DNA of 64,000 nucleotides from an uncultured Flavobacteriales bacterium (GTDB lineage: Bacteria > Bacteroidota > Bacteroidia > Flavobacteriales_E > Vicingaceae), in assembly GCA_905479915.1 (NCBI GenBank), contig CAJQOH010000028.1:62001-126000 (forward strand), given 5' to 3'. Below, in pieces: positions 14,316-62,755 of this stretch. Under the pieces are notes generated by a model. That model was not told where the DNA came from. It saw nothing but the letters and a program-made list of their open reading frames with translations, and searched no databases. Every line of letters begins with the position of its first letter. Position 1 is the first letter of the stretch. Made by a program: the position numbers and the translations under genes.

Positions 14316-14777
14316 ATGACTGAATTATCAAAAATAAAAAGCCAACTTCATTTAAAATGCTTGGAAATTGCTACTTCTAAAGTGAGCGATTTAAAAAAGA
14401 TAATCAACATCACTCAAGAAGCTGCAAACAACGAAACCAAAAGTAGCGCAGGAGATAAGCACGAAACTGGAAGAGCAATGGCTCAACTAGAAACTGAAAA
14501 ACTCTCCAAGCAACTTTCTGAAGCCTTAAAAATTGAACAGGTATTGACTCAAATCAATCCTAATTCAGAACACAAAAAAATTGGATTAGGCAGCTTAATT
14601 ACAACCAACAATGGCACCTTCTACCTTTCTGCTAGCTTAGGAAAAGTAGAAATAGACAAATCTGTATTCTACATTATTTCTCCTGCATCTCCTATTGGAA
14701 AATTATTACTCACAAAAAAAGAGAAGGAATCCTTCTCTTTTAATGGTAAAAATTATGTTATCGAAACTATAGTATAA
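14316..14777 (+). CDS. GreA/GreB C-terminal-domain-like protein (often mislabelled 3-oxoacyl-ACP synthase)
   Basis: About 153 residues from the ATG at 14316; a longer reading from a TTG at 14298 would overlap the ABC-F gene and is less likely. The N-terminal half is helical and carries ANNETKSSAGDKHETGRAMAQLETE, and the C-terminal half ends in ISPASPIGKLLLTKKE-SFSFNGKNY, which resembles the FKBP-like C-terminal domain of transcript-cleavage factors GreA/GreB. This family is common in Bacteroidota and is often annotated as 3-oxoacyl-ACP synthase without support. A role at RNA polymerase is plausible but unproven. Its last codons contain the apparent terminator of the convergent yebC gene. Confidence 0.75.
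   Translation: MTELSKIKSQLHLKCLEIATSKVSDLKKIINITQEAANNETKSSAGDKHETGRAMAQLETEKLSKQLSEALKIEQVLTQINPNSEHKKIGLGSLITTNNGTFYLSASLGKVEIDKSVFYIISPASPIGKLLLTKKEKESFSFNGKNYVIETIV
14714..14741 (-). terminator. Intrinsic terminator of yebC, inside the convergent gene
   Basis: The 11-bp perfect stem (AAAAGAGAAGG at 14717-14727 with CCTTCTCTTTT at 14731-14741) and 3-nt loop are followed on the minus strand by seven T (14720-14714). It lies 38 nt past the yebC stop but within the last codons of the plus-strand GreA-like gene. Confidence 0.7.
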
Positions 14778-46050: not shown

Positions 46051-47193
46051 TTATACCAACTCCGTTTGAGAGTAATCTTTTAGTTCATTGTAAACACTAT
46101 CACGCTCAATTGGTTGCCTATTAACATCTTGAATCAAAGCCACCATCTGATCCGAAGTCATCACTGGTTTTTGTTCTTCTACACCAGCCATACTGTATAT
46201 TTTTGTAGAATCATCTACTGTTCCGTCAATATCATTTACTCCAAAAGACAACAACAATTGAGTAGTTTTCCTACCAATCATAGGCCAGTATGCCTTTATA
46301 TGATTGAAGTTATCTAAATATATTCTAGCAATGGCATACATTCTTAAATCCTCAATAATACTTTGCTCTTCAATGTGAGACATTTGATTATTTCCATTTC
46401 TAAATTTTAATGGAATAAAGGCATTAAACCCTCCTGTTTTATCTTGCAATTCTCTTAACCTGTTCATATGATCAACCAAGTGTTTTGGTTCTTCTACATG
46501 ACCATATAAAATAGTAGCATTAGAAGGCATGCCTACATTATGAGCTGCCTCATGCATCTCTAACCACTCTTCTCCAGTACATTTATCTTTACAAATTTGA
46601 TCTCTAACTGATTTATCAAAAATTTCTGCTCCACCTCCAGGCAAAGATCCTTGTCCAGCATCTTTTAAGATCTGTAAACACTCCTCATAACCAACCTTAG
46701 CTTTACGCGCCATATAATCAAGCTCAACTGCTGTAAATGCTTTTACGTGTAAATCAGGTCTAATTTCTTTTATCTTGCTGATAAGGTTTTTGAAATACTC
46801 TAATCCCATTTTAGGATGAACACCTCCAACAATATGTACCTCAGTAATGTCTTTCCCTTCGTAGGCTTTGATCGCTTCAAATATATCTTCTTCACTCAAC
46901 TCCCATGCATCAAAATCATCTTTGTTTCTTAAAAATTTAGAGTATGCACAAAACTTACAATCAAAAACACAAATATTTGTTGGCTCAATGTGAAAGTTCT
47001 TATTGAAATACGTTTTATCTCCATGCCTGCGTTCTCTAATATGATTGGCTAAAGTTCCTAAATAACTTACCTCTGCATTTTCAAATAAATAAACCCCTTC
47101 TTCAAAGCTAATTCGTTCTTCATTATTTACTTTATCAGCAATACTTAGCAACGTACTATCGGTAATTGACTCTTTTAATAACTCTATCGACAT
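46051..47193 (-). CDS. mqnE: Aminofutalosine synthase
   Basis: 380 residues from ATG 47193 (a TTG two codons upstream is an alternative). Radical SAM cluster in HIEPTNICVFDCKFCAYSKFLRNK, then TEVHIVGGVHPKMGLEYF, LPGGGAEIFDKSVRDQICKDK and PSNATILYGHVEEPKHLVDHMNRLRELQD, all typical of MqnE. It joins SAM-derived adenosyl and the chorismate-derived precursor in the futalosine route to menaquinone. Other mqn genes are not here. Confidence 0.92.
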   Translation of the reverse strand: MSIELLKESITDSTLLSIADKVNNEERISFEEGVYLFENAEVSYLGTLANHIRERRHGDKTYFNKNFHIEPTNICVFDCKFCAYSKFLRNKDDFDAWELSEEDIFEAIKAYEGKDITEVHIVGGVHPKMGLEYFKNLISKIKEIRPDLHVKAFTAVELDYMARKAKVGYEECLQILKDAGQGSLPGGGAEIFDKSVRDQICKDKCTGEEWLEMHEAAHNVGMPSNATILYGHVEEPKHLVDHMNRLRELQDKTGGFNAFIPLKFRNGNNQMSHIEEQSIIEDLRMYAIARIYLDNFNHIKAYWPMIGRKTTQLLLSFGVNDIDGTVDDSTKIYSMAGVEEQKPVMTSDQMVALIQDVNRQPIERDSVYNELKDYSQTELV

Positions 47194-47233
47194 TCTCAAA
47201 ATTTTATATAAAGCAAATGTAATTAATATCCAT

Positions 47234-47286: not shown

Positions 47287-48567
47287 CTATTTAGTTAAAA
47301 ATACTTTTTTTGTAATAACATTTCCTTCAGATTTTATTGTCACAAAATAAACTCCATTAGGGTTATTATTTAAATCAACAGTAACCAAGTGACTGTTATT
47401 TGATTCGTTGTAAACCTCTTCTCCTAAAACATTAAAAACCGAAATAGTTGAATTAACTTTTTCTACTAAATCAATATTTATAGTACCAACTGATGGATTT
47501 GGATAAACAGACACTTGAGCTAAGTTATTTGTAATTTCTTCTGCTCCAGTAGTGTATACACATTTACTAGCACTACTATTTAGCAAGCTTGGCCTATTGT
47601 TGTTAATAGCAGCAATCATTCTTGTTTTTTGATTTGCTGTAAAAGCGTTCATACAATTATCATTTACATAATCCATATAGTTCATAAACATATCTCCGTT
47701 AGGAGCATTACTACTTCCTCCACAAGAAGATGTTGAAGGGTAATTCGGACATCCATAATTATCACCTGATTGTCTAGGTGTATCACTACAGTAATCACTA
47801 CCACAACCATTTCCTCCACCCCAAATGTGCTCTAAATTAAACCAGTGTCCAACTTCATGAGTTGCTGTTCTTCCCATTCCAAATTGACCTCCTGTATTAC
47901 CAAAATAAGGCGTACTAATATGAACTGCATTATTAGGAGCCGTAGCTGCTGTAAATGTGAAACCTAAAGTACTTCCACCAATGTCATAAACATAAATATT
48001 TAAATAATTGTTTGTATTCCATAAATCAGCAGTATAACTGGCTGGACTTCCATTTGCTGTTTTTCTTACAATACCTGTTGTACTGTTTCCATTTGGATCT
48101 TTTGTAGCCAAACAAAATTGAATTTCACAATCCACTCCTGAGAATGCTGAAGGTGTGTTACTTGCATCTGAATTGGATCTCCCAAAATCTTCATTTAATC
48201 GCTGTAACTGCTGTGCCACTCTACTATCAGGAACACTTGATGTACTCTCCCATATTTGAACAACAACAGGAACCACAATAACTGCTTTTTTAGCATTTGC
48301 ATCATAGTTATTGGCTATCCAATTTTGTAATTGCTGTTCTTTTTGAGCTTTCATCAAATCAAAAGCTACAGGGTCTTGATCTCTTAATGCTCTTTCTGCA
48401 TCTGCAGTACCACATCTATGATCAATAAAAGTAACATCACTAACCTTTAGGTTTTCAGTACCTATATTGTAATCTGTAGTACTTGAGGTTGGTTTCTGAC
48501 TGTTTTGAGCTAGTAATCCAGAACTAATAATTGTTAATGCTGAAATTAATAAGGGTATTCTTTTCAT
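47287..48567 (-). CDS. T9SS-secreted M43 (pappalysin/cytophagalysin) zinc metalloprotease
   Basis: 426 residues. Signal peptide ending GLLAQ, propeptide-like region to about residue 95, then a catalytic domain with HEVGHWFNLEH (H237, E238, H241, H247), the NGCGSDYCSDTPRQ segment and the Met-turn MNYMDYVNDNCMNAFT. C-terminal T9SS sorting domain from about 345 (VSVYPNPSVGTINIDL, GVYFVTIKSEGNVITKKVFLTK). Secreted protease. A seven-copy pentanucleotide repeat lies 9-45 nt upstream of its start codon. Confidence 0.9.
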   Translation of the reverse strand: MKRIPLLISALTIISSGLLAQNSQKPTSSTTDYNIGTENLKVSDVTFIDHRCGTADAERALRDQDPVAFDLMKAQKEQQLQNWIANNYDANAKKAVIVVPVVVQIWESTSSVPDSRVAQQLQRLNEDFGRSNSDASNTPSAFSGVDCEIQFCLATKDPNGNSTTGIVRKTANGSPASYTADLWNTNNYLNIYVYDIGGSTLGFTFTAATAPNNAVHISTPYFGNTGGQFGMGRTATHEVGHWFNLEHIWGGGNGCGSDYCSDTPRQSGDNYGCPNYPSTSSCGGSSNAPNGDMFMNYMDYVNDNCMNAFTANQKTRMIAAINNNRPSLLNSSASKCVYTTGAEEITNNLAQVSVYPNPSVGTINIDLVEKVNSTISVFNVLGEEVYNESNNSHLVTVDLNNNPNGVYFVTIKSEGNVITKKVFLTK

Positions 48568-48576
48568 GATTCGCGG

Positions 48577-48612
48577 TAGTTTAGTTTAGTTTAGTTTAGT
48601 TTAGTTTAGTTT
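48577..48612. repeat. Pentanucleotide tandem repeat (TAGTT)7 upstream of the metalloprotease
   Basis: Seven uninterrupted TAGTT units plus one base (AAACT on the coding strand). It starts 9 nt before the ATG of the M43 protease, so it lies in the leader or spacer region where copy-number slippage could change expression. Confidence 0.9.
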
Positions 48613-48810
48613 GACTACCAAATTAGTTATTCTACTTCATTTTTCAAAACAAAATTTTTAACATTATTGAATTTCCAACACTTTTATTTAACATTTTAAG
48701 CCCATGCAACCTTTTTAGCATTCCACACGTCTTTTATGTGGAGATTGTTTTAAAGTTAATTAGATAGGTAGTTAAACATAGACCAAATCTCCAATGCCTT
48801 TGAATATTAA

Positions 48811-48840
48811 AAGTCCCGTGAAAACGGGACTTTTTTTTAT
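48811..48840. terminator. Intrinsic terminator after the FAD-linked oxidase gene
   Basis: Stem AAGTCCCGT / ACGGGACTT (48811-48832) with GAAA loop, T8 on the plus strand and T4 on the minus strand. By position it serves the minus-strand gene ending at 48866. Confidence 0.7.
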
Positions 48841-48865: not shown

Positions 48866-50269
48866 CTACATAAAAACTTTCCCAGGATTCATAATATGAT
48901 TAGGGTCAAATAATCCTTTAATGTCTTTTTGCAGACGAATTTCTGTACTATTAAACGGAATATCCATGTATTCTTTTTGAACAAATCCGATACCATGTTC
49001 ACCAGAAATAGTTCCTTTTAATTGGATACACAACTCAAATATTTCTCGAATACCACCAGAAAGTTTATTGTTCCAGTCATCATCAGACATGTCTCCCTTT
49101 ATAATGTTGATGTGCAAATTACCATCTCCAGCATGTCCATAACAAACCGATTTAAAACCATATTCTGCACCTATTTCTTTTACTCCTTTTAATAGGATAG
49201 GTAATTCTGCTCTAGGAACAACGGTATCTTCTTCTTTATAAATAGATTTAGACTTTACAGCTTCTCCCACTACTCGTCTAATTTTCCATAGCTTGTCTTT
49301 TTGAACAGAGTCTTCAGCAAATAGCACCTCATCACAATTGAAATCTTCTAAAACCTTATAAATGGTTTCACAATCGTTAAACAACACCTCTTGGTTATTC
49401 CCATCTACTTCTATCAATAAATGTGCTTGTATATTTTCTGGAATATGTAACGATTCATCTCCTAGATGTTCTGCACCCCAAATTAAAGCATCCCTTTCCA
49501 TAAACTCCATTCCTGAAGGTGTTACTCCTGCTCTAAAAATAGCGGAAACTGCTGCACATGCTTCTTCTGCCGAATAAAAAGGAACCAACATTAATAAATT
49601 GTGTTTTGGATAAGGAATCAAACGAAATACAGCTTTCGTAATTATTCCTAGAGTTCCTTCACTTCCTATCATCAATTGGGTGAGGTTGTAACCTGTTGAA
49701 TTTTTCAACACATTAGCACCTGTCCAAATAATCTCTCCTGTTGGTAAAACCACTTCAAGATTTAAAACATAATCTTTTGTTACTCCATATTTAACTGCTT
49801 TTGGTCCACCAGAGTTTTCTGCTAAATTCCCTCCAATAAAACAACTTCCTTTACTTGCTGGATCTGGCGGATAAAACAATCCTTTCTCTTCTACTGCATT
49901 TTGAAATACCTCAGTAATTACTCCAGGTTCAATAACTGCTTGTAAATTTCGTTCATCTATTTCTAAAATAGCATCAAAACGCTCCATAGAAAGCAACACT
50001 CCTTTATTTACGGGCAAAGCTCCACCACTCAAACCAGTACCAGCTCCACGAGGGGTTAACGGTATGTTTTCTTTGTTGCAAAGTTTAAAAATCTGAGAAA
50101 TTTCTTCTGGAGTTCTTGGCTTTACAACAACCTCTGGAAAAAACTTTAAATCTTCTGTTTCATCATGAGCATACTTATCCAAATTCTCTTCATCAAATAA
50201 AACATAATCATTACCGACTATTGTTTGTATCTGTTCTATTACTGCGCTTGTAACAACGTTATATTTCAT
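48866..50269 (-). CDS. FAD-linked 2-hydroxyacid dehydrogenase (GlcD/D2HGDH-like)
   Basis: 467 residues. FAD-binding type 4 domain with TPRGAGTGLSGGALPVNKGVLLSMERFD, PPDPASKGSCFIGGNLAENSGGPKAVKYGVTKDYV and GSEGTLGIITKAVFRLIPYP; C-terminal domain with KIRRVVGEAVKS, YGHAGDGNLHINI (metal/substrate His) and SGEHGIGFVQKEYM. Family members oxidise glycolate, D-lactate or D-2-hydroxyglutarate. The adjacent upstream DUF1338 gene, 6 nt away, favours D-2-hydroxyglutarate; this is inference from context. Confidence 0.85.
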   Translation of the reverse strand: MKYNVVTSAVIEQIQTIVGNDYVLFDEENLDKYAHDETEDLKFFPEVVVKPRTPEEISQIFKLCNKENIPLTPRGAGTGLSGGALPVNKGVLLSMERFDAILEIDERNLQAVIEPGVITEVFQNAVEEKGLFYPPDPASKGSCFIGGNLAENSGGPKAVKYGVTKDYVLNLEVVLPTGEIIWTGANVLKNSTGYNLTQLMIGSEGTLGIITKAVFRLIPYPKHNLLMLVPFYSAEEACAAVSAIFRAGVTPSGMEFMERDALIWGAEHLGDESLHIPENIQAHLLIEVDGNNQEVLFNDCETIYKVLEDFNCDEVLFAEDSVQKDKLWKIRRVVGEAVKSKSIYKEEDTVVPRAELPILLKGVKEIGAEYGFKSVCYGHAGDGNLHINIIKGDMSDDDWNNKLSGGIREIFELCIQLKGTISGEHGIGFVQKEYMDIPFNSTEIRLQKDIKGLFDPNHIMNPGKVFM

Positions 50270-62553: not shown

Positions 62554-62646
62554 AATCTATTCTTTGGCTCATGCCAGCTCATTTAAATTGGGATTGTCAA
62601 ACTTTGATATTCAATTTCATTTCTTAGTTATTCTTACCAAACAAAA

Positions 62647-62680
62647 TACGTAAGTATAAATACTTACGTATAAATACTTA
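62647..62680. promoter_or_regulatory. Palindrome plus direct repeat, operator-like
   Basis: TACGTAAGTAT and ATACTTACGTA (62647-62670) are a perfect 11-bp dyad around AA. The 12-mer TATAAATACTTA occurs at 62655-62666 and again at 62669-62680. This lies 76 nt upstream of the nuclease-like gene and looks like a repressor or activator site. Confidence 0.55.
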
Positions 62681-62755
62681 ATTCCCTCATTTACAGCAAA
62701 TTAAATTGATTTATTCGTTTAAAAGGCTTAGATTCGTTGAACAACAATTTTAGGT

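Follow-up and report, generated by a model that had tools for sequence, protein, structure and literature searches.

The AAACT array and the protease gene

The window analysed here is a stretch of 64,000 nucleotides (nt) from an uncultured Flavobacteriales bacterium of the family Vicingaceae (contig CAJQOH010000028.1 of assembly GCA_905479915.1, positions 62,001 to 126,000), and our subject is a short tandem repeat that lies on its minus strand directly ahead of a gene for a secreted M43 metalloprotease. In particular, positions 48577-48612 hold seven perfect AAACT units (48578-48612) and one extra A (48577), and a 9-nt spacer (48568-48576) separates this array from the ATG at 48567-48565; the minus-strand order before the gene is GGTAGTC-(AAACT)7-ACCGCGAATC-ATG. 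Tandem Repeats Finder reports the same interval (48577-48612) with a period of 5, 7.2 copies and 100% matches, and this, together with the sequence, confirms the initial annotation's placing of seven perfect AAACT units 9-45 nt before the ATG.

The gene (47287-48567, minus strand) encodes a protein of 426 amino acids (aa) with a signal peptide-like N-terminus and a Por secretion tail. Its scores for Peptidase_M43 (48.3 bits) and Por_Secre_tail (56.2 bits) are above the Pfam cut-offs of 23 and 27, respectively, so the protein had been correctly named as an M43 protease secreted by the type IX secretion system. The translation contains the zinc-site-like stretch HEVGHWFNLEH, and the protease activity is putative. 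The closest same-genus homologue shows 63% identity.

The array is the only exact 4-9-mer repeat (at least three copies) in the window that reaches 15 nt. Its 36 nt compare with a maximum of 19 nt, and a mean of maxima of 14.2 nt, for period-5 arrays in 60 first-order Markov simulations of the window, and in being a perfect short tandem repeat beyond chance length it resembles a contingency locus. A looser search for four AAACT units with up to three mismatches gave four overlapping matches, all inside the array, where 0.02 are expected per shuffled window. The array is also the longest of its kind in a sample of 424,858 bases made up of the window and 20 other stretches of this genome; the runners-up measure 29, 23, and 20 nt. 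The 14-mer AAACTAAACTAAAC matches the 3.57-Mb draft genome five times, the matches overlapping one another and all lying in the array, against none for the reversed-pattern control. The 29-nt runner-up is an array of the heptamer ATAATTG at position 137 of another sampled stretch (L237, G000:C2), and a 14-mer, AAATACTTAAGTAT, is present in 2.7 copies at window positions 62644-62681.

Promoter and leader

The best promoter candidate for the protease gene is sigma-A-like, TTG-N19-TAATTTGG at 48647-48618 on the minus strand, and lies entirely upstream of the array. The candidate -7 box, TAATTTGG (48618-48625), has five of the six fixed bases of TAnnTTTG, a consensus taken from PMC9723704, and the candidate -33 TTG (48645-48647), read by eye, is 19 nt before it. 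Either TAATTTAG or TAATTTGG is similarly placed in seven of the nine same-genus leaders tested. Since the -7 box is expected at -12 to -5 relative to the transcription start (PMC9723704), transcription would begin at the array's edge, near 48613, and the predicted leader of ~46 nt would be mostly array. With the sigma-A-like candidate promoter upstream of it, the repeat is thus probably part of the 5′ untranslated region. It contains TAA in all frames, one of them in frame at -21 to -19, so the protease open reading frame (ORF) cannot start upstream of it. In RNA form the AAACU leader has no G, and leader and first codons together, taken from -45, fold at a minimum energy of 0.0 kcal/mol.

Loss of one unit would make the leader 5 nt shorter and leave promoter and frame unchanged; because the array is perfect, the 40 bases beside the ATG also stay identical. 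The initial annotation had supposed that slippage would alter spacing in the leader or promoter region; one unit would be 5 nt of leader length, and an effect on promoter spacing is not supported, the predicted promoter being wholly upstream of the array. In this non-coding position a change of unit number alters neither the reading frame nor the spacing within the promoter, as it does in contingency loci. With the frame and the 40 ATG-proximal bases spared, no on/off mechanism is evident; a switch of this type is unproven, and modest tuning or near-neutrality is likelier. Since the promoter is also unaffected, small tuning at most is expected, possibly through leader length as in uspA2 of Moraxella catarrhalis (see below).

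Comparison with relatives is informative about the origin of the repeat. In a set of 11 same-genus genomes, where orthology was fixed by a small-RNA candidate adjoining the protease gene (described in the next section), 10 have at least two CTAA within 40 nt before the ATG, this genome included, and the exception (G012) has one. Short ACTAA/ACTA runs are found in the leader of nine of the ten same-genus relatives with the protease at this locus and in three of 14 protease leaders from other genera, and in the sampled stretches of this genome at least two CTAA precede the ATG within 40 nt in 11 of 357 leaders, the array leader among them. These counts suggest an element that the genus has inherited, that the family as a whole does not require, and that was expanded in this genome. 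Exact AACTA in three copies precedes the protease orthologues of G013 and G002, and mixed 4/5-mers are present in other relatives; next to the seven units here, this lends indirect support to the idea that copy number is labile in evolution. In four relatives (G002, G004, G005, and G010) the interval between the start of the -7-like box and that of ACTAA is exactly 18 nt, whereas the last CTAA lies 0 to 26 nt from the ATG across nine genomes; the fixed 18-nt interval hints weakly that ACTAA may be anchored at the mRNA 5′ end. The sequence between the leader motif and the small-RNA promoter is much changed among relatives.

Terminator-like hairpins follow the protease gene (47264-47239, minus strand) and lie upstream of it (48809-48834, plus strand), so it is probably transcribed alone. 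Its downstream neighbour, at 46051-47199 on the minus strand, encodes a radical S-adenosylmethionine (SAM) protein of the CofH/MqnC/MqnE type.

A divergent small-RNA candidate

When the flanks of the locus were aligned, a block upstream of the leader was found to be far better conserved than the leader itself. From this alignment one sequence (L182, in G038) was dropped because it matched the pattern by chance and lacked the conserved core, and two others (L060 and L065) served as outgroups only. Read on the plus strand, the block consists of GCAACCTTTT-N12-CGTCT, GGAGAU...AUCUCC around an invariant hairpin, and then a terminator. In the window this corresponds to a structured small-RNA candidate at 48738-48838 (plus strand, predicted start) with the helix GGAGAU/AUCUCC, the hairpin UUAAUUA-GAUAGG-UAGUUAA, and the terminator-like hairpin at 48809-48834 noted above. 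It is preceded by an extracytoplasmic function (ECF)-sigma-like promoter, GCAACC-N16-CGTCT, at 48706-48732, in which GCAACC is presumably the -35 element. A flavin adenine dinucleotide (FAD)-linked oxidase gene (48866-50269, minus strand) is its convergent neighbour.

The candidate has a terminator of its own and a conserved structure, as a small RNA should. In the model-fitted alignment 95.5% of cells pair and both-side changes occur in 19 of 24 pairs, with none of 500 shuffles as good; such an alignment leans towards structure, and in the unfitted one both-side changes affect five of 27 predicted pairs. The corresponding figures for the terminator helix are 11 of 11 pairs (model-fitted) and four of 10 (unfitted). 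The pairs of the model-fitted alignment (A2) were counted with several weak matches and two secondary matches on the minus strand still in it. For the window copy, the folding z is -5.81.

The predicted promoter is of the ECF type with fixed spacing. In Flavobacterium psychrophilum a CGT -10 box marks sigma-ECF promoters (PMC9723704), including the predicted one (SM6, CGT box) of the RNA Rfp11, which is like the present candidate in this respect. A search of 14 same-genus genomes with the pattern GCAACCTTT-N12-14-CGTCT gave 25 matches, spread over 12 of them, and the reversed pattern gave none. Nine of the matches are the small-RNA loci; among the other 16, an ORF of at least 60 aa follows within 300 nt in 13 cases and not in three, and the N-termini of all 13 look secreted-type by eye. 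This recurrence ahead of secreted-type ORFs probably marks an ECF-sigma regulon. The 13 ORFs are those at L216-L221, L224-L226, L231-L233, and L235, and some have collagen-like GPAGPAG repeats. Two of the three ORF-less matches (L227 and L229) resemble another small-RNA type, as they share a TTACCTTTTTCTTAT stretch ahead of a terminator, and this genome has a similar copy, with the same promoter motif, at 14616-14722 on the minus strand of L242 (G000:C7:1-20000).

A covariance model (R1) built from nine same-genus sequences finds the candidate in 32 of 46 family genomes at E <= 0.01, and beyond the nine model sequences 14 further genomes match at E <= 1.3e-6. The M43 protease lies beside it in 25 of 30 loci and the FAD-linked oxidase in 22 of 30; in G007 the RNA is between the oxidase and radical SAM genes, with no M43 match. 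A second model (R2), built from loci later searched for in the family, was run against 295 genomes of the class; four match at E <= 1e-4, all from the window's family, and six more family genomes gave no R2 match under the stricter filters of that search, in which few candidates were scored per genome. The search of the order comprised the same 46 genomes and so added no breadth.

The small-RNA candidate matches no Rfam family at the gathering score. Matches below that score were set aside, such as Leu_leader (26.0 bits; 50), STnc370 (30.2; 54), and BTnc231 (21.9; 80.4), and so was an identity as 6S RNA, RF00013 having no match in this genome and the control matching in five of 14 named genomes. 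We found no description of it in the literature searched, which is weak evidence of absence. In surprise value this candidate for a conserved small RNA, divergent from the protease gene, comes ahead of the repeat.

Origin and possible role of the array

We consider it somewhat more probable than not (roughly 0.55) that the array arose when a short leader element, rich in ACTAA and inherited with the protease gene in the genus, underwent simple-sequence expansion. With transcription beginning near 48613, the array would form most of the ~46-nt leader, and, being A-rich, G-free, and unstructured, it may offer a place to land to ribosomes that work without Shine-Dalgarno pairing. Mixed 4/5-mers would have been lengthened by replication slippage to seven perfect 5-mers, and gain or loss of a unit would change leader length only, giving small tuning or none rather than an on/off switch. 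Bacteroidota translation does not use Shine-Dalgarno pairing, and in Flavobacterium johnsoniae adenines at -3, -6, -12, and -13 and a lack of structure favour initiation (PMC6847099). The initiation regions of that species are like the present leader in being adenine-rich and unstructured; they differ in not being repetitive, and here the positions -3, -6, -12, and -13 fall in the spacer and last unit, where unit number does not affect them.

Several observations weigh against this explanation. When a longer 5′ flank is folded, a 6-bp stem (GGUAGU/ACUACC) can form around the array at -5.2 kcal/mol (z -2.84, equalled by two of 200 shuffles); we set it aside because its 5′ arm lies upstream of the predicted transcription start and the stem is not seen in the relatives' folds. 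There is also no general enrichment of ACTAA in the leaders of this genome (38 of 357, against 36.4 expected), and a general ribosome-binding motif is thereby rejected as a genome-wide rule. The loose pattern ACTAA-N0-2-CTAA-N0-2-CTAA has 90 matches in the 14 same-genus genomes, where its reversed control has 63, and a few long arrays account for many of these 90, so that the motif as such appears barely above chance. Finally, among 32 clean sites, picked by eye from these matches as those with gaps holding only A, 17 are within 60 nt of an ATG and 15 are not. The rule on gaps excluded one site with ACTAACTAAACCTAACTAA ahead of a secreted-type ORF (G007:C26). Four AAACT units occur in four of 46 family genomes, with reversed-control matches in two, and one of these sites (G008:C95) is ahead of a secreted-type ORF. 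Runs of the ACTAACTAAACTAA type at L149, L153, L162, and L163 are situated directly behind terminator-like hairpins, not in leaders.

Alternatively, slippage within the population could alter unit number and with it protease expression, making the array a phase-variable switch or a rheostat. Perfect arrays of this 36-nt size slip in other bacteria, and this one has a 5′ untranslated position ahead of a secreted enzyme and a unit number that differs between species. The closest parallel is M. catarrhalis uspA2, where, according to PMC4679880, a short tandem repeat likewise separates promoter and start codon in a gene for a surface or secreted protein and varies in number (6-23 AGAT units), with expression highest at 18 in one strain; strain variation and the effect on expression were measured there, and the unit here is a pentamer. 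Because the uspA2 case shows that expression can depend on how many repeats a 5′ untranslated region contains (PMC4679880), we retain this as an unlikely reading; it has to contend with a promoter, a frame, and 40 ATG-proximal bases that one-unit loss does not change, and with the finding of a single such array in ~425 kb and no set of contingency loci. Similarly unlikely in our estimate is a passive simple repeat, a low-complexity leader that slippage lengthened and that is tolerated, its length having no function. Unit size, number, and the distance of the last CTAA from the ATG (0 to 26 nt) vary freely between species, ACTAA is not enriched in leaders generally, and like ACTA arrays are found away from start codons, namely ~20 units near a contig start (L146, G001:C110:21-101) and ~9 units directly behind a stop codon (L147, G008:C121); yet 10 of 11 same-genus genomes have the motif at this site while the sequence from it to the small-RNA promoter has changed much, which speaks against a passive repeat.

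The motif might instead be recognised by an RNA- or DNA-binding regulator of secreted-protein genes. Hydrophobic N-termini follow 14 of the 17 ATG-near clean sites (seven of 10 once the seven protease orthologues are removed), compared with 118 of 360 background genes, and a similar proposal has been made for the TAACTGA repeats of Beggiatoaceae, Cyanobacteria, and some Bacteroidetes (PMC4679880). Those repeats are also AT-rich, contain stop codons, and stand close before the start codons (here 9 nt) of genes without Shine-Dalgarno sequences; they differ in being heptamers, with many sets per genome in some species, where here a pentamer/tetramer family, with AAACT as the unit, has one long array. 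The numbers are small, the genes behind some sites are of the sigma factor, response regulator, and iron-sulphur kinds, and the 15 sites outside leaders and the lack of general enrichment count further against a recognition element, which we judge improbable. Still further down we place base pairing of the leader with the divergent small-RNA candidate, which is very improbable. The genes are adjacent, GGUAGUU is present in the RNA core and AACUACC in the window leader, and a Flavobacterium small RNA, Rfp18 of F. psychrophilum, affects the mRNA of two metalloproteases (PMC9723704). However, RNAduplex pairing of the RNA (without its terminator) with its own protease leader was no better than with shuffled leaders in nine of nine genomes (z -1.15 to +1.23, 200 shuffled leaders each), and the protease ranked 78th among 356 start regions for the RNA core, so we rejected the pairing. 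A two-part control module is conceivable, if doubtful, in which an undescribed envelope-stress (ECF) small RNA would have its targets in trans among other secreted-protein mRNAs, divergent from a protease gene whose level would be set by the length of its slippage-prone AAACU leader.

If repeat length does tune translation, the expanded leader element would be a rare length-variable leader in a bacterium that does not use Shine-Dalgarno pairing, and a simple system in which leader length varies while the ribosome-proximal sequence is fixed. The small-RNA candidate, with its ECF-type promoter and its one locus through most of the family, would offer a testable cell-surface regulator in a little-studied marine group.
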